This document shows positions 21,097 through 64,000 of a DNA stretch of 64,000 bases, piece by piece. The translations under genes and the position numbers were made by a program. Positions within the stretch are counted from its first letter, which is position 1, and every line of letters begins with the position of its first letter. This stretch comes from Gordonia sp. PDNC005. Lineage in GTDB: Bacteria > Actinomycetota > Actinomycetes > Mycobacteriales > Mycobacteriaceae. The notes beneath the pieces are model-generated. The model did no database searches, had not been told where the DNA came from, and saw only the letters and a list, made by a program, of their open reading frames with translations. The stretch is taken from assembly GCF_016919385.1 (NCBI RefSeq), contig NZ_CP070351.1:1860001-1924000 (forward strand). The letters run 5' to 3'.

Positions 21097-22263
21097 ATGA
21101 CCGACATAGTTTCTGAACGGCTCGACGCCGCATCAGCACCACTCCAGTTCGCCTACTGGGTGCCGAACGTGAGCGGCGGCCTCGTCGTCTCCACCATCGA
21201 ACAACGCACCGACTGGAGTTACGACTACAACCGCAAGCTCGCCGTACTCGCCGAGAACAACGGCTTCGACTACGCGCTCTCTCAGGTCCGATACATCGCG
21301 TCGTACGGCGCGGCCTACCAGCACGAGTCGACGAGCTTCTCCCTCGCTCTGTTGCTGGCCACCGAACGACTCAAGGTGATCGCCGCCGTCCACCCCGGGT
21401 TGTGGCAGCCCGGTGTCCTCGCCAAGTTCCTCACCACGGCCGATCATCTGTCCGGTGGGCGCGCCGCGGTGAACGTCGTGTCCGGATGGTTCAAGGACGA
21501 GTTCACCAAGCTCGGCGAACCATGGCTCGAACACGATGAACGTTACCGGCGGACCGAGGAGTTCATCACCTACCTGCGGCGGATCTGGACCGACGATCAC
21601 GCAGAGCTCAAAGGCGACTTCTACCGACTTCACGACTTCGACCTGAAGCCCAAGCCCGTCGACCTGCCCGGGCGGCCGCACCCGGAGATCTTCCAAGGCG
21701 GCAACTCGACTGCCGCACGCACCCTCGCCGGCCGCGTGTCCGACTGGTACTTCAGCAACGGCAAGGACTTCGACGGGCTGACCGAGCAGGTGGTCGACGT
21801 GAACACCGAGGCCGCCCTGCACGGTCGAACAGTCAAGTTCGGGCTCAACGGATTCCTCATCGGACGTGACACCGAATCAGAGGCACGCGATGTGCTCCGG
21901 GAGATCGTCGACAAGGCCGACCGACAGGCAGTCGAGGGCTTCGGCTCCGCCGTCAAACAGGCGGGCAACTCGACGTCGGACGGAAAGGGCATGTGGCAGG
22001 ACTCCGAGTTCGCCGACCTCGTCCAGTACAACGACGGGTTCCGCACGGGTCTGGTCGGAACGCCCGAGCAGATCGCCAAGCGCATCGTCGCGTACAAGAC
22101 GCGCGGTGTGAATCTCTTCCTCCTCGGGTTCCTGCACTACCTCGAAGACGTCGAGTACTTCGGCACCCGCATTCTTCCCCTGGTCCGTGAACTCGAAGCG
22201 GACCTGACCTCCAGTGGACGGCTCGAGTCCGAACTCGCCCGCAACGGCGTCCTGAGCGCCTGA
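21097..22263 (+). CDS. sfnG: FMNH2-dependent dimethylsulfone monooxygenase SfnG
   Basis: This 388-residue luciferase-like flavin monooxygenase should convert dimethylsulfone to methanesulfinate using FMNH2 from a partner reductase. The N-terminal FAYWVPNVSGGLVVSTIEQR is characteristic of SfnG, and the LLM barrel is supported by VVSGWFKDEFTKLGEPWLEH, PEIFQGGNSTAARTLAGR and the C-terminal TRGVNLFLLGFLHYLEDVEY. AGGAG precedes ATG 21097. It is the first gene of a same-strand run of six that also holds two SfnB/DszC-type monooxygenases, ssuD and a flavin reductase, probably induced by sulfur limitation. Confidence 0.93.
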   Translation: MTDIVSERLDAASAPLQFAYWVPNVSGGLVVSTIEQRTDWSYDYNRKLAVLAENNGFDYALSQVRYIASYGAAYQHESTSFSLALLLATERLKVIAAVHPGLWQPGVLAKFLTTADHLSGGRAAVNVVSGWFKDEFTKLGEPWLEHDERYRRTEEFITYLRRIWTDDHAELKGDFYRLHDFDLKPKPVDLPGRPHPEIFQGGNSTAARTLAGRVSDWYFSNGKDFDGLTEQVVDVNTEAALHGRTVKFGLNGFLIGRDTESEARDVLREIVDKADRQAVEGFGSAVKQAGNSTSDGKGMWQDSEFADLVQYNDGFRTGLVGTPEQIAKRIVAYKTRGVNLFLLGFLHYLEDVEYFGTRILPLVRELEADLTSSGRLESELARNGVLSA

Positions 22264-22298
22264 CGCCCCACACTTCATCTGACAAGGAATCCCACACC

Positions 22299-23501
22299 AT
22301 GACCACCTCGCTCTCCCCCGACACCACCACCAGCGCCTTCGACGAGGCCCTCCACCGCGCCGACCTCGTGGCCGCCGAACTCCGCGCCACCGCCGCAGAG
22401 CGTGATCGCGCGAACGCCGCCCCCACCGCCGAGATCGAGCTGCTCCGCAGCCACGATCTGCTGCAGGTGGGCGAACCCGTCGAATTCGGCGGTTCCGGCC
22501 TGAACTATGCGCAGACGCAGCAGATCACCCGACGTATCGCCCGTGGCGACACATCTATCGCTCACCTCCTCGGATACCACTACGCACAGCAGCGGATCGC
22601 CCACCTGTTCGGGACTCCGGAGCAGGCTGAAGCGCTCTCCCGCCGCAACGCGGACGAGAAGCTGTTCTGGGGCGGAGTTCAGAATCCGCGTGGTGGCAGC
22701 GGTCTGGTGCTGACCCGCGACGGGGACGGTTTCCGGCTCAACGGCCGCCGCACGTTCGCCTCCGGCGCCGGCGTCGGTGATCAGCTGTCCGTTACCGCCA
22801 CCTTCGGCGACGCCCTGGTCTTCCTCTCACTGCCCGCAGGCAAGGAGGGTTTCACGCCGCTCGGCGACTGGGACAACATCGGCCAGCGTCTGACCGACTC
22901 GGGCGGTGTGGAATTCGTGAACACGCCGATCTCACGGGACGAGATCCTCGGCGACCCCGACTCCCCACCGACGTTCACCGCGTTCCAGCAGCTCGTCACT
23001 CCGCACTGGCAGCTCGCCTTCGTCAACTTTTACATCGGCACCGCCGAGGGCGCCTTGGACGAGGCGCTCGACTGGACTCGACTGAACGCAAGCGCGTGGG
23101 AGACGTCGGGCCTCGAGTCCGCCACCGACGACCCCTACATCCTGGAGCTCGTCGGAGAGATCCGCGCGGAGATCACCGCAGCGGTGCTCCTCGCCGACCG
23201 GGCGGGCGACGCACTGCAGCATGCACTCGACATCGGTGAAGCGCTCACGGACGAGCAACGCGCCGTGGCCGCAGTCGCGATCGCCGAGGCGAAGTACGTC
23301 ACGACCAAGGTCTCGTTGGACGCCGCTTCCCGACTTTTCGAGATTCAGGGTGCTCGCGCGACCACCACCGACTACGGCTTCGATCGGCACTGGCGGAACC
23401 TCCGCACGCACACCGTCCACGATCCGGTCGCGTACAAGGCACGTGAGGTCGGCGACTGGACCTTGAATCACCGCGCACCGCAGTTCTCGCTTTACAGCTG
23501 A
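22299..23501 (+). CDS. acyl-CoA dehydrogenase-fold flavin monooxygenase (DszC/SfnB type)
   Basis: This 400-residue protein has the acyl-CoA dehydrogenase fold but belongs to the group of flavin-dependent sulfur monooxygenases (DszC, SfnB). Visible blocks: N-terminal helical part (LRSHDLLQVGEPVEFGGSGLN), a middle beta domain (GFRLNGRRTFASGAGVGD) and the C-terminal bundle ending ARATTTDYGFDRHWRNLRTHTVHDP, where the RNLRTHTVHDP stretch is shared with these monooxygenases rather than with true dehydrogenases. It likely oxidises an organosulfur compound using FMNH2. It lies 35 nt after sfnG and 4 nt before the next paralogue. Confidence 0.85.
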   Translation: MTTSLSPDTTTSAFDEALHRADLVAAELRATAAERDRANAAPTAEIELLRSHDLLQVGEPVEFGGSGLNYAQTQQITRRIARGDTSIAHLLGYHYAQQRIAHLFGTPEQAEALSRRNADEKLFWGGVQNPRGGSGLVLTRDGDGFRLNGRRTFASGAGVGDQLSVTATFGDALVFLSLPAGKEGFTPLGDWDNIGQRLTDSGGVEFVNTPISRDEILGDPDSPPTFTAFQQLVTPHWQLAFVNFYIGTAEGALDEALDWTRLNASAWETSGLESATDDPYILELVGEIRAEITAAVLLADRAGDALQHALDIGEALTDEQRAVAAVAIAEAKYVTTKVSLDAASRLFEIQGARATTTDYGFDRHWRNLRTHTVHDPVAYKAREVGDWTLNHRAPQFSLYS

Positions 23502-23505
23502 CACT

Positions 23506-24681
23506 GTGACACTTCGAATCACCGATCACGACGCCGCGATCGACGCGGCTCGCGCACTCGCACCCGCCATCGCGGCGGGTGCGAGTGCACGTGACGCCGC
23601 CAGAGCACTGCCGTTCGACGAGGTCACTGCGCTGTCGGCGTCCGGGCTCCTGTCCATCACGGTGCCGACCGAATTCGGTGGACCGGGGCTCGGCGCTGCA
23701 ACGCTTGCGTCGGTGGTGGCGACGATCGCCTCCGCCGACCCGAACGTCGCGCAGATCCCCCAAAGCCACTTCGTGTTCGTCGACGCCGTCCACAGGGTCG
23801 GACCGGACACGCTCAAGGAGCACTTGTTTCCGCTGGTCATAGGCGGCGGACGAGTCGCGAACGCGCAGACCGAGCGCGGCGGGCGGACCGTTCTCGACGA
23901 CTCCACGGTGCTTCGCCGGACCGCGACCGGTCTGCGACTCACCGGGACGAAGCACTACAGCACCGGCGCACTGTTCGCCGATGTGCTCGCGGTGCGAGCG
24001 AACGGTCCGGACGGCGGCAGCGTGATCGCGTTCGTTCCAGCCGCCTCCGACGGTGTCGAGATCGTCGACGACTGGAACGGGTTCGGTCAGCGCACCACGG
24101 CGAGCGGCACCGTCGTGCTGAACGATGTGGTCGTCGACCCTGATCACTTGGTTGACTTCACCCGCCTGCTCGGGACACCGAGCACCTACGGGACCCGTGC
24201 CCAACTCGTGCACGCCGCCATCGACGTCGGAATCGCGCGAGGTGCTCTCGACGCGGCACCGAGCGTCGTCGGCGGCGCCCGCCCATGGTTCGAGGCCGGC
24301 GTCGACAGGGCGGCCGACGACCCGCTGCTTCTCGCCCAGGCCGGAGACCTCGAGATCGACGTGCGCGCTGCACAGGCTCTGCTCGACGTCGCGGCCCGCA
24401 GCATCGACGCCGCCGACGCCAACCCGACACGAGAGGCGATCGGCGCCGCGGCACTTGCGACCGCCGCGGCGAAGGTCAGCGCGGGTCGAGCAGCCCGCCG
24501 CGCCGGCGCGGACCTGTTCGACTTCGGCGGCACCCGCGCGGCAGGTGCGCAGGTCAACGTGTCGCGCTTCTGGCGTGACGCACGAACTCACACTCTCCAC
24601 GACCCGGAACGCTGGAAGGTCCAGCACCTAGGCCGATGGGCGCTGGACAGGCAGCTCCCGCCGAGCCACGGAACGATCTAG
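23506..24681 (+). CDS. sfnB: SfnB family sulfur acquisition oxidoreductase
   Basis: This 391-residue paralogue of the preceding protein fits the SfnB group of acyl-CoA-dehydrogenase-like oxidoreductases in sulfone and sulfonate use. Blocks include ALSASGLLSITVPTEFGGPG, the region IPQSHFVFVDAVHRVG, GLRLTGTKHYSTGALFADVL and the C-terminal RFWRDARTHTLHDPERWK. The start is GTG 23506, 4 nt after the previous stop. Two adjacent members with different N-terminal halves suggest different substrates or a heteromer; which is SfnB proper cannot be settled from sequence alone. Confidence 0.85.
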   Translation: MTLRITDHDAAIDAARALAPAIAAGASARDAARALPFDEVTALSASGLLSITVPTEFGGPGLGAATLASVVATIASADPNVAQIPQSHFVFVDAVHRVGPDTLKEHLFPLVIGGGRVANAQTERGGRTVLDDSTVLRRTATGLRLTGTKHYSTGALFADVLAVRANGPDGGSVIAFVPAASDGVEIVDDWNGFGQRTTASGTVVLNDVVVDPDHLVDFTRLLGTPSTYGTRAQLVHAAIDVGIARGALDAAPSVVGGARPWFEAGVDRAADDPLLLAQAGDLEIDVRAAQALLDVAARSIDAADANPTREAIGAAALATAAAKVSAGRAARRAGADLFDFGGTRAAGAQVNVSRFWRDARTHTLHDPERWKVQHLGRWALDRQLPPSHGTI

Positions 24682-24705
24682 ATTCAGACAAGGAAGTCAC
24701 GACTG

Positions 24706-25878
24706 ATGTCCCTCAAGCTCCATTGGTTTCTGCCGACGTACGGCGACTCGCGCTTCATCGTCGGCGGCGGTCACGGACAACCGGCCGGTATCGCACGCGG
24801 CGATCGCGATGCGTCCATCGGCTATCTGTCGTCGATCGCCAGAGCCGCCGAGGACTTCGGATTCACGGCCGCACTCACTCCGGCCGGCGCGTGGTGCGAA
24901 GACGCCTGGCTCACCACTGCGATGGTCGCTCGGGAGACCGAACGCCTCGGCTTCCTCGTCGCCTTCCGCCCGGGTCTGGTCAGTCCGACTCTCGCTGCCC
25001 AGATGGCGGCGACATTCAACAAGCACGCCCCTGGCCGTCTGCTGCTGAACGTCGTCACCGGAGGCGAGTCCGCCGAGCAACGCGCGTACGGAGATCATCT
25101 CGACAAAGCGGCACGCTATGCCCGTTCCGACGAGTTCTTGAGCGTCGTCCGACGCCTCTGGGCCGGGGAGACTGTCACTCACCACGGCGAGCACATCACC
25201 GTTGAAGAGGCGACCCTCGCCACCCTGCCCGATCCGACACCCCCGATCTACTTCGGGGGTTCGTCGCCCGAAGCCGGTGCGGTGGCCGCACGGCACAGCG
25301 ACGTGTATCTGACCTGGGGCGAACCTCCTGCGGCCGTCGCGACGAAGATCGACTGGATCCGGGGGCTCGCGGCCCAGCAGGGCCGGACGGTCACGTTCGG
25401 CGTGCGACTGCACGTCATCACCCGCGACACGTCGGAGGCCGCCTGGGCCGAAGCAGGACGGCTCCTCGAGGCTCTCGACGCCGACACCATCGCCCACGTG
25501 CAGGACGGACTCGGCCGGAGTGAGTCGACCGGGCAGGCATCGATGCGCGCCCTGCACGAGCAGAATCGCGCTGACGGATCATGGCAGAATCCGCGCGCCC
25601 TCGAGATCGTGCCGAATCTGTGGTCGGGAGTCGGCCTGGTTCGTGGTGGTGCAGGCACAGCTCTCGTCGGGTCGCACTCGGAGGTGGCCGACTTGATCGC
25701 CGAGTACGCCGCAGTCGGTGTCGACGAGTTCGTGCTGTCCGGCTACCCGCACCTCGAGGAGTTGTACTGGTTCGGCGAAGGAGTGGTGCCCGAACTGACC
25801 AGACGAGGACTGTTCGACAACCGACTGAGCCGTTCGATCACGACTACCGGGACACCGTTTGTTCCGGCCGCCCGCTGA
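24706..25878 (+). CDS. ssuD: FMNH2-dependent alkanesulfonate monooxygenase SsuD
   Basis: This 390-residue LLM-class flavin monooxygenase should cleave alkanesulfonates (R-CH2-SO3-) to an aldehyde and sulfite, or act on methanesulfonate as MsuD does. Family segments are LHWFLPTYGDSRFIVGGGHG at the start, FNKHAPGRLLLNVVTGGES, PPIYFGGSSPEAGAVAARHSD with YLTWGEPP, and VDEFVLSGYPHLEELYWFGEGV at the end. GGAAG precedes ATG 24706. It follows sfnB by 24 nt and precedes the flavin reductase that would supply FMNH2. No ssuABC importer lies next to it; the importer at 59-62 kb is a distant candidate. Confidence 0.93.
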   Translation: MSLKLHWFLPTYGDSRFIVGGGHGQPAGIARGDRDASIGYLSSIARAAEDFGFTAALTPAGAWCEDAWLTTAMVARETERLGFLVAFRPGLVSPTLAAQMAATFNKHAPGRLLLNVVTGGESAEQRAYGDHLDKAARYARSDEFLSVVRRLWAGETVTHHGEHITVEEATLATLPDPTPPIYFGGSSPEAGAVAARHSDVYLTWGEPPAAVATKIDWIRGLAAQQGRTVTFGVRLHVITRDTSEAAWAEAGRLLEALDADTIAHVQDGLGRSESTGQASMRALHEQNRADGSWQNPRALEIVPNLWSGVGLVRGGAGTALVGSHSEVADLIAEYAAVGVDEFVLSGYPHLEELYWFGEGVVPELTRRGLFDNRLSRSITTTGTPFVPAAR

Positions 25879-58082: not shown

Positions 58083-58282
58083 GGGGTCGACGTTACCGAG
58101 ACCGACGGACTTTCGCGCGCACTGACTTCAATTCGCGCCCACCTCGGCCGGGTGGCGCAATCACCCTGACCGATCCGGATAACCGCAGTTCATGCGGTGT
58201 CCGGCCGGCTCACGGCATGGCGGGTTCGGCGGGGCGCGAGCGACGTGCCCGCCGTCCATCAGGACCTCTGTCGAAACGCCCA

Positions 58283-58295: not shown

Positions 58296-59063
58296 ATGCC
58301 GATCACGACTGACCCCCGCCGACGCCGGGCCGACGACGCACGCGTTGTCGCCGACGTGTTGCGGCGCGAGATCGACCGAGGCGACCGGACCGGTGCACTC
58401 GACGAGAACGCGTTGGCCGCGGAGTTCGACGTGTCCCGCAACGCCGTTCGTGACGCACTCGGTCTGCTCTCCGCTCAAGGCCAGATCGATCGGGCACCAC
58501 GGGTCGGAACTCACGTCGTGCGCCGAAAAGTCGAGCACGGCATCGATGAACTCCGTGGACTCAAAGAGACCCTGCTCGGACACGGCGACGTCCGCAACGA
58601 GATCCGCGTCGCGACGGTGCTCCGCGCTCCGGTCGCAGTCGCTCATCGCCTGCACCTCACGCCGGGAGACGACGTGGTGTACATCGAACGACTCCGCTAC
58701 CTCGACGACGAACCCGTCAGCCTCGACCTCACGTATCTGACGCCCGACGTCGGGATACCCCTCCTCGATCACGACATCGAGAACACAGACGTCTTCGTCC
58801 TGCTCGAAGTGGTGTCCGGCGAGCGCCTCCATTCGGCCGAGCAGAGTGTCGAGGCAGCCAACGCCGATCCGCACTCTGCGGCCAACCTCGACGTCCCGCC
58901 CGGTACCGCCGTCCTCCTCATGGAACGGCTCACTCGCCTCGGGCAGAACGCTCGCCCCGTCGATCTCGAGTACCTGCGGATACGAAGTGACCGGATCAGT
59001 CTGCACGCCACCGCATTCCGCGACACACCAACGACCATCCCTTTGATCGGAGATTCCCGATGA
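58296..59063 (+). CDS. GntR family regulator with UTRA domain (HutC type)
   Basis: This 255-residue regulator has an N-terminal GntR winged helix (VVADVLRREIDRGDRTGALD, LAAEFDVSRNAVRDALGLLS) and a C-terminal UTRA ligand domain (VVYIERLRYLDDEPVSLDLTYL, AVLLMERLTRLGQNARPVDLEYLR). It is the first gene of the ferredoxin-ABC-flavoprotein operon: the ferredoxin gene starts within its stop codon (ATGA). By position it should sense the imported compound or its product and control the operon. Confidence 0.9.
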   Translation: MPITTDPRRRRADDARVVADVLRREIDRGDRTGALDENALAAEFDVSRNAVRDALGLLSAQGQIDRAPRVGTHVVRRKVEHGIDELRGLKETLLGHGDVRNEIRVATVLRAPVAVAHRLHLTPGDDVVYIERLRYLDDEPVSLDLTYLTPDVGIPLLDHDIENTDVFVLLEVVSGERLHSAEQSVEAANADPHSAANLDVPPGTAVLLMERLTRLGQNARPVDLEYLRIRSDRISLHATAFRDTPTTIPLIGDSR

Positions 59064-59287
59064 GCCTTGTCAACAACCGCACTGATGTGCCGGTGACGAT
59101 CGACGAGTCGCTGTGCATCGACGGCTGCACCCTCTGCGTCGAGGTCTGTCCCCTCGACTCCCTCGCCATCAATCCCGAGTCCGGCAAGGCCTTCATGCAC
59201 GTCGACGAATGCTGGTACTGCGGCCCGTGCGCCATCCGGTGCCCCACCGGCGCAGTCACCGTCAACATGCCCTATCTGCTGCGCTGA
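59060..59287 (+). CDS. 2[4Fe-4S] ferredoxin (AprB-like)
   Basis: This 75-residue ferredoxin has two complete cluster motifs: Cys19, 23, 26, 30 (CIDGCTLCVEVCP) and Cys51, 54, 57, 61 (CWYCGPCAIRCP). The first motif has a three-residue gap, CxxxCxxCxxxCP, as in AprB-type beta subunits. It lies upstream of an AprA/SdhA-like flavoprotein in the same gene run, so the two probably form an electron-transfer pair. Start and stop overlaps link it to the regulator gene. Confidence 0.92.
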   Translation: MSLVNNRTDVPVTIDESLCIDGCTLCVEVCPLDSLAINPESGKAFMHVDECWYCGPCAIRCPTGAVTVNMPYLLR

Positions 59288-59337
59288 CGCGCACCGTACG
59301 TTCTCCAACCGCTCCCCTCACAGCCCCGAGGTCTCCC

Positions 59338-60717
59338 ATGCCAAGATTTCGTCCTGCCGTCGCGGCCGCCGTCGCCGCCTTGATCGCCGCGTCCACGGCT
59401 GCCTGCTCACTCTCTCCCGAAGCCGACGGCGATTCGACGGTCGTGGTCGTCGGCTATCAGTCGAAGACGATCAACACAGTCACCGCGGGCACGCTGCTTC
59501 GTTCGCGCGGAGACTTCGAACGCAGGCTCGACGACGTCACGAAGCGAACCGGCACGAAGTACACCGTGCGGTGGGAGGACTACGACACGGGCGCGCCGAT
59601 CACCACGGGCATGATCGCGGGCAAGATCGACCTCGGCTCGATGGGTGATTACCCGTTGCTCATCAACGGCTCACGCGCCAACGGCAACCCGGCGACTGCC
59701 ACATCGATCCTGTCGGTGACCGGGTCATCGCCGAAGGGATCACTGAACATGGTGGTCACCGCACCCGATTCACCGATCTCGTCGATCCGCGACCTCGGCG
59801 GCAAGCGGGTGTCGGCGAGTGTCGGGTCCGCAGGTCACGGCACTCTGCTGGCCGGCTTGTCGAATGCCCACATCCCCGTCGACGACGTCGAGGTCAGCAA
59901 CCAGCAGCCGCAAGTCGGCGCATCGGCCCTGGAGAGCGGAAAGGTCGACGCCCTCGCCCAGTTCGTCGCATGGCCCGGTCTCCTCGTCTTCCAGAACAAG
60001 GCCAAGCTGATCTACGACGGCGCGCAGTCCGGCCGTCCCACCCTCCACGGCACCATCACACGCAACGCTTTCGCCAAGGACAATCCCGACGTGGTCGAGG
60101 CGTTCCTTCAAGCACAGTTGGACGCGACGAAGGCTCTGGTCAGAGATCCCCTCGAGGCAGCGCGTGAGGTCGCCGAAGCGAGTGGCCTCCCCGCCGAGGT
60201 GGTGTACCTCTACAACGGCCCCGGAGGCACCGACTTCAACCCGGCGCTCAAGCCGAACCTGGTCGACGCGCTGACTGCCGACACGCCGTATCTCGAGTCG
60301 ATCGGCAAGTTCCCGAACCCCGTCGACCTCGGAACCTTCGTCGACGACAAGCCGCTGCGCGCAGCGGCCGGCGCGACGGGCACTGACTACCCGGCGCTCC
60401 TGGCCCGCACCGGCAACGATTCCACGGCGGTCGGCGAAGTGTGGTACTCGGGTTCGACGACGACCAAGGTCGACGACGCGACCGCAGTCCTGCGCCTGGT
60501 CCGAGCAGCGCGCGTTGCTAAGAAGACCGTGACGGCCGCGTACATCACCGACGCCCTCGTCGGCACCCGGTGGTTCGCGGACCACGCTGTCTGGCTCAAG
60601 GACGGCGGCGTGTTCCACGCATTCACCACCGCAGACAACGCAGCCGCCTGGAGGTCCACCCACCCGACCGCCACGCCTGTGACGTACGCCGAGGCTCTCG
60701 CACAGGTTCAGTCGTGA
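59338..60717 (+). CDS. ABC substrate-binding lipoprotein fused to a NosL-like domain
   Basis: This 459-residue lipoprotein (lipobox TAAC, Cys23) has an SsuA/NrtA/TauA-like binding domain up to about residue 335 (VVGYQSKTINTVTAG, IAGKIDLGSMGDYPLLINGS, RDLGGKRVSASVGSAGHG, SALESGKVDALAQFVAWPG). An extra ~110 residues follow; they resemble NosL (DDATAVLRLV, VTAAYITDALVGTRWFADHA, FHAFTTADNAAAWRSTHP) without its Cys-His-Gly-Met copper site. The usual family length is about 320-350 aa. Ligand unknown; a sulfonate, taurine-like or other anion is likely. Its stop overlaps the permease GTG. Confidence 0.82.
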   Translation: MPRFRPAVAAAVAALIAASTAACSLSPEADGDSTVVVVGYQSKTINTVTAGTLLRSRGDFERRLDDVTKRTGTKYTVRWEDYDTGAPITTGMIAGKIDLGSMGDYPLLINGSRANGNPATATSILSVTGSSPKGSLNMVVTAPDSPISSIRDLGGKRVSASVGSAGHGTLLAGLSNAHIPVDDVEVSNQQPQVGASALESGKVDALAQFVAWPGLLVFQNKAKLIYDGAQSGRPTLHGTITRNAFAKDNPDVVEAFLQAQLDATKALVRDPLEAAREVAEASGLPAEVVYLYNGPGGTDFNPALKPNLVDALTADTPYLESIGKFPNPVDLGTFVDDKPLRAAAGATGTDYPALLARTGNDSTAVGEVWYSGSTTTKVDDATAVLRLVRAARVAKKTVTAAYITDALVGTRWFADHAVWLKDGGVFHAFTTADNAAAWRSTHPTATPVTYAEALAQVQS

Positions 60718-61541
60718 CTGCCTCGGCCGTCTCCGCCCGGCGGACGGCGACCGCGGTGGGCCTGCGCGACGCGGGACGCTGGGCGCTGCGGATCTCGGCA
60801 GTCCTGGTCGCCGTGAGCGTCTGGCAGCTCCTGGCGGCCAACAACGTCGTTCTCTGGTTGCACTTCGACACCGTCCCGTCGCCGATCGAGGTCCTCGACG
60901 CGTGGGGCGACCGCCTCGGAACACGCGCCTACTACCTCGACATCGGGCAGTCACTCGTCCGGATCGGTACGGGCTTCATCCTCGCCGGCGGCGTCGGTGT
61001 ACCGCTCGGAATCGCGCTCGGCAGGTCCAGGCTCGCGGGTGACACCCTCGGCACCCTGACCGAGTTGGCGCGACCGATCCCGGCGATCGCCCTGGTACCG
61101 ATAGCGATCCTGGTGTTCCCGAGCGATGAGGCGGGAATGGTGTTCATCACCTTCGTCGCCGCCCTGTTCCCGATCGTCGTGTCGACGCGGCACGCGGTCA
61201 GAGCACTCCCGACGATCTGGGAGGAGTCGGTGCTGACCATGGGCGGGACACGACGTGACGTTGTGCTCCGAGTGATCCTGCCCGGCATAACGCCAGGGGT
61301 GTTCGGCGGTCTGTCCGTCGGAATCGGCGTCGCCTGGATCTGCCTGATCTCGGCGGAGATGATCTCCGGCCGTCTCGGAATCGGGTACCAGACCTGGCAG
61401 AGCTACACGGTGGTCGACTACCCGGGTGTCTTCGTCGGAATGTTCACGATCGCCGCCCTCGGCGCCTTCACATCGGGCGCCATCGAACTGATCGGCCGCC
61501 GGGTCACCGGCTGGCTTCCTCGAGGAGAGAGGCCCTCATGA
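60714..61541 (+). CDS. ABC transporter permease (SsuC/TauC type)
   Basis: This 275-residue inner-membrane permease has about six segments and the EAA loop (RALPTIWEESVLTMGGTRRDVVLRVILPG). It belongs to the nitrate/sulfonate/taurine importer family. GTG 60714 overlaps the stop of the binding-protein gene (GTGA) and its own stop overlaps the ATPase start (ATGA). Confidence 0.9.
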   Translation: MTASAVSARRTATAVGLRDAGRWALRISAVLVAVSVWQLLAANNVVLWLHFDTVPSPIEVLDAWGDRLGTRAYYLDIGQSLVRIGTGFILAGGVGVPLGIALGRSRLAGDTLGTLTELARPIPAIALVPIAILVFPSDEAGMVFITFVAALFPIVVSTRHAVRALPTIWEESVLTMGGTRRDVVLRVILPGITPGVFGGLSVGIGVAWICLISAEMISGRLGIGYQTWQSYTVVDYPGVFVGMFTIAALGAFTSGAIELIGRRVTGWLPRGERPS

Positions 61542-62292
61542 GCACGGCAATCGACATCAACGGCCTCACGTTGCGCCACGGCGACCGGATCGTCGTCGAT
61601 CGACTCTCACTGGCGATCCGGCAGGTCAGATCCTGGTCGTCACCGGCCCGTCCGGCTGCGGAAAGTCGACATTGTTGCGCGCTGTCGCAGGACTGCGCCC
61701 CATCGACGGCGGCGCCATCACAGCGGACGGCGAGCCCGTTGTGGGAACGTCGAGGGACCGCGCGATGGTCTTCCAGGACGACGCGCTGCATCCCTGGCGG
61801 ACAGTCCGCCGGAACATCACGCTCGCACTGGGCCTGCGCGGAGTGCCACGGGCCGAGCGCTCCGCAGAGGCGAATCGGTGGATCGACGAGATCGGTCTCG
61901 ACGAGTTCGCGGATCATCTGCCGCGCGAACTGTCCGGAGGGATGCGGCAGCGTGTCCAACTGGCACGCGGCCTGGCCGGCGCACCGCGCACGGTTCTCAT
62001 GGACGAACCCTTCGGCGCCCTCGACGCGCAGACCCGGCAGTCGATGCAGCAACTGTTGATCCGCACACTGCGCGCGCATCCGGCGACCATCATATTCGTC
62101 ACTCACGACATCGACGAAGCCGTGCTGCTCGGCGACCGGATCGTCGTGCTCGATCACGCGGGCCGCGGGATCCGCCGGATCGTCGACGTGCCGCACCCCC
62201 GCTCGGCGTCCGTCGCCAACCAGTCCGCTCGCGACGAGGCGGCCGACGCCCTCGCCAGCGGTGCACTTCTGAGAGAAAGGGTCGTCGCATGA
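61538..62292 (+). pseudogene. ABC transporter ATP-binding gene (SsuB/TauB type) with an apparent frameshift
   Basis: The N-terminus (ATG 61538, STAIDINGLTLRHGDRIVVDRLSLAIR) reads in one frame, and from about 61622 the protein continues in another: GQILVVTGPSGCGKSTLLRA with Walker A, then LSGGMRQRVQLARGL, TVLMDEPFGALD and the H-loop FVTHDIDEAV, ending 62292. One missing C in the run at 61622 (expected CGG-CCA-GGT) would restore one frame; no start codon exists in the second frame upstream of Walker A. The rest is intact, so it is a recent mutation or a base-call error. The flavoprotein ATG overlaps the stop. Confidence 0.85.
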
Positions 62293-64000
62293 CCACCCCG
62301 ACCACTGCCGAGGCGTTCAGCGCCCCCGACATCACCGACGCGATCCGACTCGACTGCGATGTGCTCGTGGTCGGTGGCGGCACGGCGGGTTCGATGGCGG
62401 CGCTCACTGCGGCGGAGAACGGCGCACAAGTCCTGCTGCTGGAGAAGGCGCACGTCCGTCACTCGGGAGCACTCGCCATGGGCATGGACGGCGTCAACAA
62501 CGCGGTGATCCCGGGCAAGGCCACACCCGAGGACTACGTCGCCGAGATCACCCGCGCCAACGACGGGATCGTGGATCAGAAGACTGTCTATCAGACGGCG
62601 ACGCGGGGCTTCGGCATGATCTCGCGGCTCGAACGGTACGGCGTGAAGTTCGAGAAGGACGAGTACGGCGAGTATGCGGTGCGCCGAGTGCACAGGTCCG
62701 GGTCATACGTGCTGCCCATGCCGGAAGGACGCGACGTCAAGAAGGTTCTCTACCGGGTGCTCCGACGACGAGACATGCGCGAGAAGATCACCATCGAGAA
62801 TCGCCTGATGCCTGTACGAGTCCTCACCGAGAACGGACGCGCCATCGGCGCCGTGGCTCTGCACACGCGGACCGGTGAGTTCTACGTGATCGCCGCGAAG
62901 TCGGTGATCCTTGCAACCGGCCCGTGCGGTCGGCTCGGCCTCCCCGCATCGGGATACCTGTACGGGACCTACGAGAACCCGACAAACGCAGGCGACGGCT
63001 ACTCGATGGCGTACCACGCGGGCGCCGAACTCAGCGGGATCGAGTGCTTCCAGATCAATCCCCTGATCAAGGACTACAACGGGCCGGCCTGCGCCTATGT
63101 CGCCAACCCGTTCGGCGGCTACCAGGTGAACGCTGACGGTGATCGGTTCGTCGACTCCGACTACTGGTCGGGCGACATGATGACCGAGGTGGTCCGTGAG
63201 ATCGACTCCGCGCGCGGACCGATCTATCTCAAGGTGTCTCATCTGCCCACGGAGACGATCAACACGCTCGAATCGATTCTGCACACCACCGAACGGCCGA
63301 CTCGCGGCACGTTCCACGCCAACCGCGGTCACAGCTATCACACGCATGACATCGAGATGCACGTCTCCGAGATCGGGTTGTGCAGCGGACACTCGGCGTC
63401 TGGTGTGTGGGTCGATGAGAACGGTGCGACCTCGGTCGACGGGCTCTACGCGGCGGGCGACCTCGCATGCGTCCCGCACAACTATATGATCGGCGCCTTC
63501 GTGTTCGGCGAGCTCACCGGCCGCCACGCCAGTGAGCGGGCCAAGGACGTCGAGGCGCCCGCCGAACTTCCTGCAGGGCAGATCGCGGACGCTCACGAAC
63601 TGATCTACCGGCCGCTGCGGAATCCGGACGGTCCCCCGCAGCCGCAGGTGGAGTACAAGCTTCGCCGGTTCGTCAACGACTACGTCGCTCCGCCCAAGAC
63701 GTCGAACAAGCTCGGAATCGCCATCGAGACGTTCGAACGCATGAAGAGCGAGATCGCGGAGATGGGGGCTCGGACACCCCATGAGTTGATGCGCTGCGCG
63801 GAGGTCACGTTCATCCGCGACTGCGCCGAGTTCGCGGCCCGGAGTTCGCTGACGCGCACCGAGAGCCGGTGGGGCCTCTATCACCAGCGCGACGACCTGA
63901 CGGAACGTGACGACGCCGCGTGGGGCTACCACTTGAACCTGCGGAAGTCTCCGACGGGTGAGATGGAGTTCCTCGGGCGTCCCGTCGCCCCGTATCTGGT
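62289..64000 (+). CDS. AprA/SdhA-like FAD-dependent flavoprotein (partial)
   Basis: The visible 570 residues form the N-terminal part of a fumarate reductase/succinate dehydrogenase/APS-reductase-like flavoprotein; the end lies outside the window. FAD site: DVLVVGGGTAGSMAALTAAE and the acidic residue LLLEKAHVRHSGA; second FAD segment DGLYAAGDLACVPHNYM. With the 2[4Fe-4S] ferredoxin gene in the same gene run this resembles an AprAB pair. The substrate may be linked to the imported anion. ATG 62289 overlaps the ATPase stop. The exact reaction is not determined by what is visible. Confidence 0.88.
   Translation, partial: MTTPTTAEAFSAPDITDAIRLDCDVLVVGGGTAGSMAALTAAENGAQVLLLEKAHVRHSGALAMGMDGVNNAVIPGKATPEDYVAEITRANDGIVDQKTVYQTATRGFGMISRLERYGVKFEKDEYGEYAVRRVHRSGSYVLPMPEGRDVKKVLYRVLRRRDMREKITIENRLMPVRVLTENGRAIGAVALHTRTGEFYVIAAKSVILATGPCGRLGLPASGYLYGTYENPTNAGDGYSMAYHAGAELSGIECFQINPLIKDYNGPACAYVANPFGGYQVNADGDRFVDSDYWSGDMMTEVVREIDSARGPIYLKVSHLPTETINTLESILHTTERPTRGTFHANRGHSYHTHDIEMHVSEIGLCSGHSASGVWVDENGATSVDGLYAAGDLACVPHNYMIGAFVFGELTGRHASERAKDVEAPAELPAGQIADAHELIYRPLRNPDGPPQPQVEYKLRRFVNDYVAPPKTSNKLGIAIETFERMKSEIAEMGARTPHELMRCAEVTFIRDCAEFAARSSLTRTESRWGLYHQRDDLTERDDAAWGYHLNLRKSPTGEMEFLGRPVAPYL

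Follow-up and report, generated by a model that had tools for sequence, protein, structure and literature searches.

Closest described systems and the six-gene operon

Two described enzymes, the PAPS reductase of M. thermolithotrophicus (8a8o) and AprAB (1jnr, 2fja), pair an FAD-containing subunit from the fumarate reductase family with a dicluster, ferredoxin-like subunit that carries an electron-transfer tryptophan. The closest described analogue in gene content is the asfRABC arylsulfonate cluster, which comprises a flavoprotein reductase, a ferredoxin, a binding protein, an ABC importer, and a regulator. According to the available text of PMC4267179, sulfonates are a main form of soil sulfur, the assimilation routes reviewed use monooxygenases, AsfA and AsfB of Pseudomonas putida S-313 are proposed to supply electrons to a sulfonate-cleaving monooxygenase, and asfA mutants are unable to use arylsulfonates. 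The SsuABC and TauABC sulfonate importers belong to the same superfamily as the importer described here, for the binding protein, permease, and ATPase alike, and they supply the nearest solved binding proteins. The flavoprotein described here belongs to the same family as the name-bearing models NF010374 (PRK13800) and NF006131 (PRK08275, named fumarate reductase/succinate dehydrogenase flavoprotein subunit). In the literature searched, we found no description of the function, operon, or active site of the NF010374/PRK13800 family; in the available texts, PRK13800 was printed once, as the domain label of a fungal PP2A (phosphatase) subunit, and an M. paratuberculosis array study names transport genes only. 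Thus, the original prediction of an undescribed operon agrees with this literature, but its flavoprotein is a member of a named family with a generic product name.

We analyzed a stretch of 64,000 nucleotides from Gordonia sp. PDNC005 (contig NZ_CP070351.1, positions 1,860,001 to 1,924,000), referred to here as the window. Our data confirm a real six-gene operon at positions 58296-64000, with all genes on the + strand. It begins with a GntR-family regulator with a UTRA domain (58296..59063; 255 aa; PF07702 E 1.6e-30, PF00392 E 4e-10), which reached no NCBIfam cut-off, followed by an AprB-like 2[4Fe-4S] ferredoxin (59060..59287; 75 aa), an NMT1/SsuA-like periplasmic binding protein (59338..60717; 459 aa; PF09084 E 6e-16), an ABC permease (60714..61541; 275 aa; PF00528), an ABC ATPase gene (61538..62292), and an AprA-like FAD flavoprotein, whose first 1712 nt lie in the window (62289..64000; NF010374, FAD_binding_2, Succ_DH_flav_C, HEAT_2). 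Four of the joins are 4-nt overlaps and one, 5' of the binding-protein gene, is a 50-nt gap; the coordinates and domain assignments behind this arrangement, as first described, hold.

Mapped across genomes, as had been suggested, the run proved to be conserved beyond chance, contrary to what would have refuted the original prediction. The full order was found in 72 of the 80 relatives retained by a genome scan and in all seven actinobacterial genomes opened from a separate sample. Eight loci fell short of it. Five end at a contig edge (L061, L078, L080, L083, and L091). L020 is rearranged, its ferredoxin match lying 4.8 kb 5' of the binding-protein gene and GntR being absent from the stretch. 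The remaining two, L081 and L085, keep the ferredoxin and flavoprotein with no ABC genes between them. Many soil bacteria share the operon, and its kin extend through mycobacteria, nocardiae, and other actinobacteria to rhizobia, Burkholderiales, Acinetobacter, and cyanobacteria. Where plasmids of proteobacteria or cyanobacteria carry them, the flavoprotein, the ferredoxin, and a HEAT protein are encoded by separate genes that lie close together. The regulator is GntR-UTRA in the window and Crp/Fnr or LysR in other lineages; LysR adjoins the module in three of the 19 plasmid loci opened, all of them cyanobacterial (L106, L107, and L122). No viral carriage of the operon was confirmed, with close-relative patterns as the sole probe. 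The idea of a redox-import operon, in which an AprAB-like pair is joined to an importer of the SsuA/TauA kind, is therefore borne out. With a probability of roughly 0.48, we interpret the operon as a dedicated route for the uptake and reduction of one anionic substrate, likeliest an oxyanion of organic sulfur, for example a sulfonate.

Kinship and active site of the flavoprotein

The flavoprotein gene extends 1012 nt past the window, to contig position 1925012 (window-equivalent 65012), and encodes 907 aa in total with a HEAT-repeat domain at the C-terminus. The FAD and HEAT parts share one open frame at all 80 loci. The kinship with AprA had been recognized at the outset, while the HEAT domain, which lies outside the window, had not. 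We found that the protein matches NF010374 over residues 12-907 with 1576.7 bits (cut-off 1196) and NF006131 with 854 bits (cut-off 587), and that it does not reach the cut-off of the curated aprA model TIGR02061 (132.5 of 641.75 bits). Its best PDB match by sequence is the PAPS reductase alpha subunit 8a8o_A (E 8.7e-59; profile 1.1e-78). The predicted structure of a family member from A. caldus (pTM 0.86, with confidence below 50 in parts of the active-site region) has 8a8o and 1jnr/2fja (AprA) as top fold matches; a first predicted structure (P0001) has a good HEAT part and pLDDT below 50 in much of the substrate region. In a tree without FrdA rows, without the long-branch reference L135, and without one protein of the own genome, two AprA-type proteins group with the family (94/86) and a separate clade holds the two SdhA rows (100/100). 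By sequence, fold, and, with moderate support, the tree, APS/PAPS reductase alpha subunits are the closest relatives of the flavoprotein. The grouping with succinate dehydrogenase that would have spoken against the original prediction did not occur, and succinate dehydrogenase proper was rejected on the separate SdhA clade.

Despite this kinship, the flavoprotein differs from 8a8o and AprAB at the substrate site. In a low-identity sequence alignment, with A. fulgidus numbers counted on a pairwise alignment, all 249 family rows have Leu, Val, and Tyr at the positions of R265, Q145, and W234, respectively, and Ser, Leu, Met, or Val at that of E141. We take E141, W234, and R265 of A. fulgidus AprA to be APS-site residues. 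The N74 position is kept in 248 of 249 rows, and a histidine aligns in every row with the histidine of AprA-type rows that is presumably H398. Q145 is named as an APS-site residue in the available text of PMC10322725. Since the APS-site residues are replaced, the protein is not an APS reductase and AprA chemistry cannot be assumed; the search for AprA active-site residues that accompanied the original prediction fails at R265, Q145, and W234 in every row. As far as can be judged from the alignment, the flavoprotein is neither AprA nor SDH and possesses a near-invariant active site of its own family.

These residues make it highly improbable that the operon encodes a reserve APS or PAPS reductase that serves sulfate assimilation. 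A PAPS reductase is the closest relative of solved structure, and R136-S137 of the window flavoprotein fall on R121-S122 of 8a8o in a pairwise alignment, which are two of the three residues of the K120/R121/S122 loop linked to PAPS in the available text of PMC10322725. However, the loop serine is kept in only 120 of 249 rows, which, together with Leu at the R265 position, led us to reject a PAPS reductase of the M. thermolithotrophicus type. An importer for an intracellular nucleotide would also make little sense. PF01507 proteins already occur in 57 of the 61 genomes searched, and the own genome has three, two of which are encoded next to each other. The PF01507 family holds CysD as well as CysH. 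Replacement of CysH was rejected on these PF01507 counts, with CysD-type members included in them.

The same alignment bears on whether the substrate might be an imported organic acid, unsaturated or otherwise, that is reduced in the manner of fumarate reductase at a C=C bond, with sulfur incidental, which we regard as quite doubtful. Consistent with such a reaction are the fumarate reductase superfamily fold, an arginine that all 249 rows share and that aligns with SdhA R286, which we take to be the SDH/FRD proton-shuttle arginine, and the conservation of H318 (249/249) and H358 (247/249). However, the flavoprotein joins AprA-type proteins rather than SdhA in the tree (built without FrdA), its partner is an AprB-like dicluster ferredoxin, the run contains no membrane-anchor gene, and the importer's kin are mostly sulfonate binders. 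Moreover, the position of SdhA H242, presumably a functional residue of SdhA, is Asn in all 249 rows. The invariant arginine also fits C=C reduction, and we count it against reduction of a sulfur oxyanion.

Importer, electron supply, and genomic context

Three of the four solved relatives of the binding protein carry taurine- or sulfonate-binding names (TauA and two SsuA proteins), and the fourth is named a nitrate transport protein. The binding protein is longer than these relatives (459 aa versus 298-348 aa) and scores 135 bits against TIGR01728, the SsuA-family model, below its cut-off of 163.5; we count this shortfall against a sulfur substrate. The permease falls under the cut-offs of the NtrB, SaoP, SsuC, and TauC models. 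ATPases of three Gordonia relatives align near 61618 in two frames, such that their first 27-31 codons fit one frame and the remainder another, with the break preceding the Walker A region. The initial gene list was correct in including the ATPase but overlooked this break. An open ATPase frame of at least 246 aa is present in all 78 relatives with an ATPase match; the broken frame of the gene in the window, as assembled, also counts against the preferred reading.

Eight cysteines and W52, the tryptophan of a CW-x-C motif, are conserved in 94 of 94 aligned ferredoxin rows. PDB matches of the ferredoxin include AprB (3gyx_B, 1jnr_B) and the PAPS reductase beta subunit (8a8o_C), while polyferredoxins and others score higher. 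By aligned ranges, rather than a residue-level alignment, W52 falls at Trp42 of the PAPS reductase beta subunit, a residue proposed for electron transfer in the available text of PMC10322725. The AprB-like CW-x-C motif is also present beside AprA-type reference proteins. Thus, the ferredoxin has the features of an AprAB-type dicluster beta subunit with an electron-transfer tryptophan, the latter placed by aligned ranges, though its length is 75-81 aa, compared with 104-166 aa for the solved beta subunits. Compared with 8a8o and AprAB, the operon further adds the HEAT domain, its own ABC importer, and a regulator. FdxA adjoins the copies in A. caldus and M. radiotolerans, together with a GltD-like protein and a ferredoxin-NADP reductase, respectively.

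Sulfur-related genes lie within 8-10 kb in 10 of the 19 plasmid loci opened (9 are without) and in none of five control stretches, each from a different one of these plasmids (Fisher p 0.047; 0.07 without the TSUP locus), a weak test because the loci were hand-picked and mutually related, product names were judged unblinded, and there were five controls only. The genes counted were TauE/SafE or TSUP, YeiH or 'putative sulfate exporter', SsuD, TauA/TauD, SsuA-type binding proteins, 3-mercaptopropionate dioxygenase, and rhodanese; the 'sulfonate' genes of a Nostoc locus are binding proteins and possibly part of the module itself. No sat or qmo partners were annotated in the 19 loci. The main texts, as available, of sulfur-source studies in R. 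qingshengii and G. terrae do not contain the word flavoprotein, and these strains may lack the operon. We count the weakness of the neighbor test and the silence of these texts against a role in sulfur metabolism.

Genes for LLM/SsuD/DmoA-type monooxygenases lie near some copies, and the own genome contains two SsuD-like genes (window 24718-25797 and 21151-22182; 418.7 and 144.7 bits, against a cut-off of 518.2 that neither reaches). By analogy with Asf, the flavoprotein and ferredoxin, rather than acting on the sulfur themselves, might pass electrons to a separate Ssu/LLM-type monooxygenase that cleaves the sulfonate, a rather unlikely reading that is favored by these genes and by the parts shared with asfRABC (reductase, ferredoxin, binding protein, ABC transporter, and a role under sulfate limitation). 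However, there is no monooxygenase gene within the six-gene run, and the C. metallidurans AsfA candidate belongs to another family: it scores 56 bits to NF006131, has 29% identity over 234 residues, and lies in its own clade (100/100), whereas the window family lies with AprA-type rows (94/86). Identity with AsfA is ruled out for this candidate alone (putative Rmet_4334); AsfA of S-313 may still match. The asfRABC regulator is a LysR protein active under sulfate limitation, whereas the window run has a GntR-UTRA regulator and a HEAT protein.

The GntR-UTRA protein may regulate the operon, and the element GGTGGCGCAAT at 58151..58161 (+ strand), 5' of gntR, is a probable regulatory site. It is conserved in Gordonia, Mycobacterium, Nocardia, Tsukamurella, and more actinobacterial genomes. 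With at most one mismatch, we found 71 sites in 25.2 kb 5' of gntR compared to 28 in 1.237 Mb elsewhere (72 loci); when up to two mismatches are allowed on the + strand, 65 of 72 loci have one site or more and 29 of 72 have at least two, with a spacing of 53-54 bp in 23 cases (counts exclude locus L090). The own genome has four exact copies of GGTGGCGCAAT (control 0): one 5' of the operon, one within a coding frame, one that precedes a LysE-like gene by 278 bp, and one without an assignment. These four copies show no sulfur regulon, which we also count against the preferred reading. No riboswitch was matched by Rfam at gathering scores in five loci.

A proposed reduction route and its meaning

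Under the preferred reading of uptake and reduction of a sulfur oxyanion, the binding protein, permease, and ATPase would import the anion, while low-potential electrons would enter the small ferredoxin at its two [4Fe-4S] clusters and reach the FAD of the AprA-like flavoprotein by way of the conserved tryptophan. The reduced flavin might then attack the sulfur of the substrate or deliver a hydride, and sulfite would probably be released for assimilation. Overall, the pair would carry out a two-electron reduction, fed by ferredoxin, of a sulfur anion taken up from outside. The probable role of the HEAT domain is that of a scaffold, either for the complex or for its maturation. In favor of this reading we count the AprA/PAPS-reductase kinship of the flavoprotein, the conserved cysteines and tryptophan of the ferredoxin, the FdxA and reductase genes that adjoin two copies, the names of the binding protein's solved relatives, the sulfur-related neighbors, and the ferredoxin-flavoprotein core kept at L081 and L085.

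The flavoprotein and ferredoxin might themselves constitute a new ferredoxin-driven, O2-independent reductive desulfonase that cleaves C-S (or other S-X) bonds and derives from the APS/PAPS reductase fold, a possibility that we put forward only tentatively. Such an enzyme, accompanied by a HEAT partner and a dedicated importer, would have spread through the Actinomycetota, Pseudomonadota, and Cyanobacteriota and, if real, may be the actual catalyst of some activities credited to oxygenase helpers. Since the residues are near-invariant and the gene set is small and separable, these proposals are directly testable.

Most likely, the operon helps the cell gain sulfur from imported organic sulfur compounds. 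An AprAB-like reductase with its own importer would add an unassigned step to sulfur acquisition and would show that the APS-reductase fold has been reused for another substrate.

The operon in Gordonia and its conservation among actinobacteria

The genome of Gordonia sp. PDNC005 is one contig of 4.26 Mb, with the window at G000:C1:1860001-1924000 (G000 being this genome), and the nearest named relatives of its proteins are from Gordonia. We found the genes for a GntR-UTRA regulator, ferredoxin, binding protein (SBP), permease, ATPase and AprA-like flavoprotein at 58296-64000, where the original prediction had placed them, joined by four 4-nt overlaps and one 50-nt gap; it had overlooked that the flavoprotein gene extends past the end of the window and that the ATPase frame is broken. 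Fetched from the genome beyond the window end, the flavoprotein is 907 aa in full, with a FAD_binding_2/Succ_DH_flav_C part followed by HEAT repeats. The frame of the importer ATPase gene (61538-62292) changes at about 61618, before the Walker A region, and two frames are needed to align it with the ATPases of three Gordonia relatives; among the best 80 of at least 496 stretches, the frame is open over at least 246 aa in all 78 relatives with an ATPase match. Either a genuine lesion or an error of assembly could account for the break; in the former case, the importer may be dead in Gordonia sp. PDNC005.

Genome contigs were scanned with the family alignment, which gave at least 496 stretches encoding a relative, and the best 80, from Gordonia, Nocardia, Rhodococcus, Mycobacterium and their kin, were retained. 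Within these best 80 of at least 496, the full order GntR-ferredoxin-SBP-permease-ATPase-flavoprotein-HEAT is present in 72, and the remaining eight include five truncated at contig ends and a rearranged locus (L020). Among the same 80, 4-nt overlaps join GntR/ferredoxin in 44 of 73 loci, SBP/permease in 71 of 76, permease/ATPase in 71 of 77 and ATPase/flavoprotein in 55 of 78. Two loci, from M. terramassiliense (L081) and a 4.3-kb MAG contig (L085), have ferredoxin and flavoprotein genes with no ABC genes in between. Another sample, of 296 genomes from the phylum, yielded eight above the PRK08275 cut-off, including this genome, and the other seven all have the full gene order; three of these are from the window's own family, possibly repeating species of the 80, and four are from another family. 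Both samples bear out the conservation of the gene run, which had been named earlier as a check. The cut-off of NF010374, the NCBIfam model of the flavoprotein family, was passed in 8 of 61 genomes of a relatives search (own genome included), and in another Gordonia (L011, G004:C1:762227-765985) the flavoprotein gene is present only as fragments in differing frames, which indicates a patchy presence of the operon in the genus and its ongoing loss in places.

The element GGTGGCGCAAT lies at 58151-58161, upstream of gntR. In the 72 full-order loci (among the best 80 of at least 496), the 25.2 kb that precede gntR hold 71 sites with at most one mismatch, compared to 28 in 1.237 Mb elsewhere, a 124-fold enrichment; when two mismatches are allowed, the + strand carries at least one site in 65 of the 72 loci and at least two in 29, and 23 spacings are 53-54 bp. 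The exact element is found upstream of gntR in Tsukamurella, and five of seven further actinobacterial loci contain it with at most one mismatch. No match with at most two mismatches was found within 400 bp in five of six proteobacterial GntR loci, and the sixth (L114) has two imperfect matches. By eye, a CTTGT-AT-ACAAG-like palindrome lies close to the gntR start in four of these six, which would fit GntR autoregulation there.

Kinship of the flavoprotein, ferredoxin and binding protein

The window flavoprotein scores 1576.7 against NF010374 (cut-off 1196). By sequence, the M. thermolithotrophicus PAPS reductase alpha subunit is its closest solved protein (E 8.7e-59; 1.1e-78 in a profile search), followed by AprA, and the top PDB folds for a modelled A. 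caldus family member (pTM 0.86) are PAPS reductase (8a8o) and AprA (1jnr/2fja), above FrdA/SdhA. In a maximum-likelihood tree of 30 rows, the family (91/96) lies beside two AprA-type proteins (94/86), both supports being moderate; the AprA-type rows passed PRK06854 and not TIGR02061. SdhA and the AsfA candidate, from C. metallidurans megaplasmid locus L119, form separate clades (each 100/100), so that the grouping with succinate dehydrogenase named as a possible refutation was not seen.

The proposed check of AprA active-site residues went against AprA: in 249 of 249 family rows, Leu, Val and Tyr stand where A. fulgidus has R265, Q145 and W234, which rules out an identity as APS reductase. The E141 position is S, L, M or V across these rows, and the N74 position is kept, likewise a His common to AprA-type rows. 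Y228, C253, N257, L259, K261, R286, H318, H368 and H397 are the family's own and invariant in all 249 rows, and E86 is present in 248. Since the APS-site positions are replaced and the family has its own residue set, the flavoprotein is, judged from its sequence, a branch of the AprA family whose pocket differs. A distant AprA-like flavoprotein with an adjoining CW-x-C ferredoxin, in another actinobacterial family (L135, 5804-7558), is possibly a further separate branch.

All 94 aligned rows of the ferredoxin, 75 aa long in the window, retain eight Cys and Trp52. Judged by aligned ranges, Trp52 is at the place of Trp42 of PAPS reductase beta, which has been proposed for electron transfer (PMC10322725); other dicluster proteins outscore PAPS reductase beta in the same search. 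The solved relatives of the 459-aa SBP (n = 4) are TauA, two SsuA and one named nitrate transport protein, and its score is under the SsuA-family cut-off.

Plasmid loci outside actinobacteria

Plasmids searched in translation gave 208 records with a match, of which we chose and opened 19 annotated loci, and one further record without annotation. In 18 of the 19, the flavoprotein, the ferredoxin and the HEAT protein each have a gene of their own, close to one another, and the Tsukamurella plasmid locus has a flavoprotein-HEAT fusion. The Leptolyngbya HEAT gene aligns with the C-terminal region of NF010374 at 99.5 bits, which makes the actinobacterial flavoprotein-HEAT chain look like the product of a gene fusion. 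An annotated SBP-permease-ATPase set adjoins the module in 16 of 19 loci; in the other three, the set is 7 kb away, or there are permease and ATPase only, or SBPs only. A GBBH-like/DUF971 protein or Mrp/ApbC-type iron-sulfur carrier is present in 14 of 19. The A. caldus pTcM1 locus also holds FdxA and a GltD-like oxidoreductase, and that of M. radiotolerans FdxA and ferredoxin-NADP reductase.

Burkholderiales, Acinetobacter and A. caldus loci carry a GntR regulator, those of rhizobia and Methylobacterium a Crp/Fnr one, and three cyanobacterial loci a LysR one. These LysR regulators are approximately 670 aa (L106, 5646-7661; L107, 7388-9424; L122, 6661-8661), and the one scanned (L106) has a second NMT1-like match, weak and below cut-off, as if a binding protein had turned sensor. 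Adjoining the pTcM1 module (L109, 10574-14035) is a 1153-aa fusion, kin of glutamate synthase beta and FAD/NAD electron-transfer proteins and a candidate electron donor. In Nostoc pNe_5 (L121, 8983-15138), two HAD hydrolases, a methyltransferase, a GNAT and a VOC protein are encoded between the flavoprotein and ferredoxin genes, possibly a hint of a different substrate at this locus.

Relation to asfRABC and a possible sulfur function

The arylsulfonate cluster asfRABC of P. putida S-313 comprises a reductase, ferredoxin, SBP, ABC transporter and LysR regulator, a parts list strikingly similar to that of the window operon, and asfA mutants of this strain cannot use aromatic sulfonates (PMC4267179). 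AsfA/AsfB have been named in C. metallidurans (PMC2864759). In the megaplasmid pair of this species (L119, locus tag unconfirmed), the flavoprotein shares only 29% identity across 234 residues and belongs to a different clade. R. opacus carries the window flavoprotein family (P0079), and its type strain is reportedly without asfA. The operon would thus appear to resemble Asf in outline, as at most a candidate member.

A sulfur gene lies within the 8-10 kb flanks of 10 of the 19 plasmid loci compared to none of five control stretches taken from five of the same plasmids (p 0.047, or 0.07 without counting the TSUP locus), a weak test given author-picked loci, unblinded labels and mutual relatedness of the loci. 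Among the neighbours, genes of the TauE/SafE and YeiH types suggest that sulfite may be the product. Published sulfur-source work lends no backing from expression: the texts of PMC8557817 and PMC3868597, whose strains are not necessarily operon carriers, mention no flavoprotein. Elsewhere in the window (21097-25797), two SsuD/LLM-type monooxygenase-like genes with two acyl-CoA-dehydrogenase-like frames between them (approximately 390-400 aa, the likeness judged by eye) are perhaps a separate sulfur-scavenging cluster.

The AprAB-like reductase system with its own importer is real and widely conserved, and the idea of an undescribed redox-import operon holds in a softened form. Sulfur is its best-supported functional theme, on the basis of importer type, fold kinship and neighbours.
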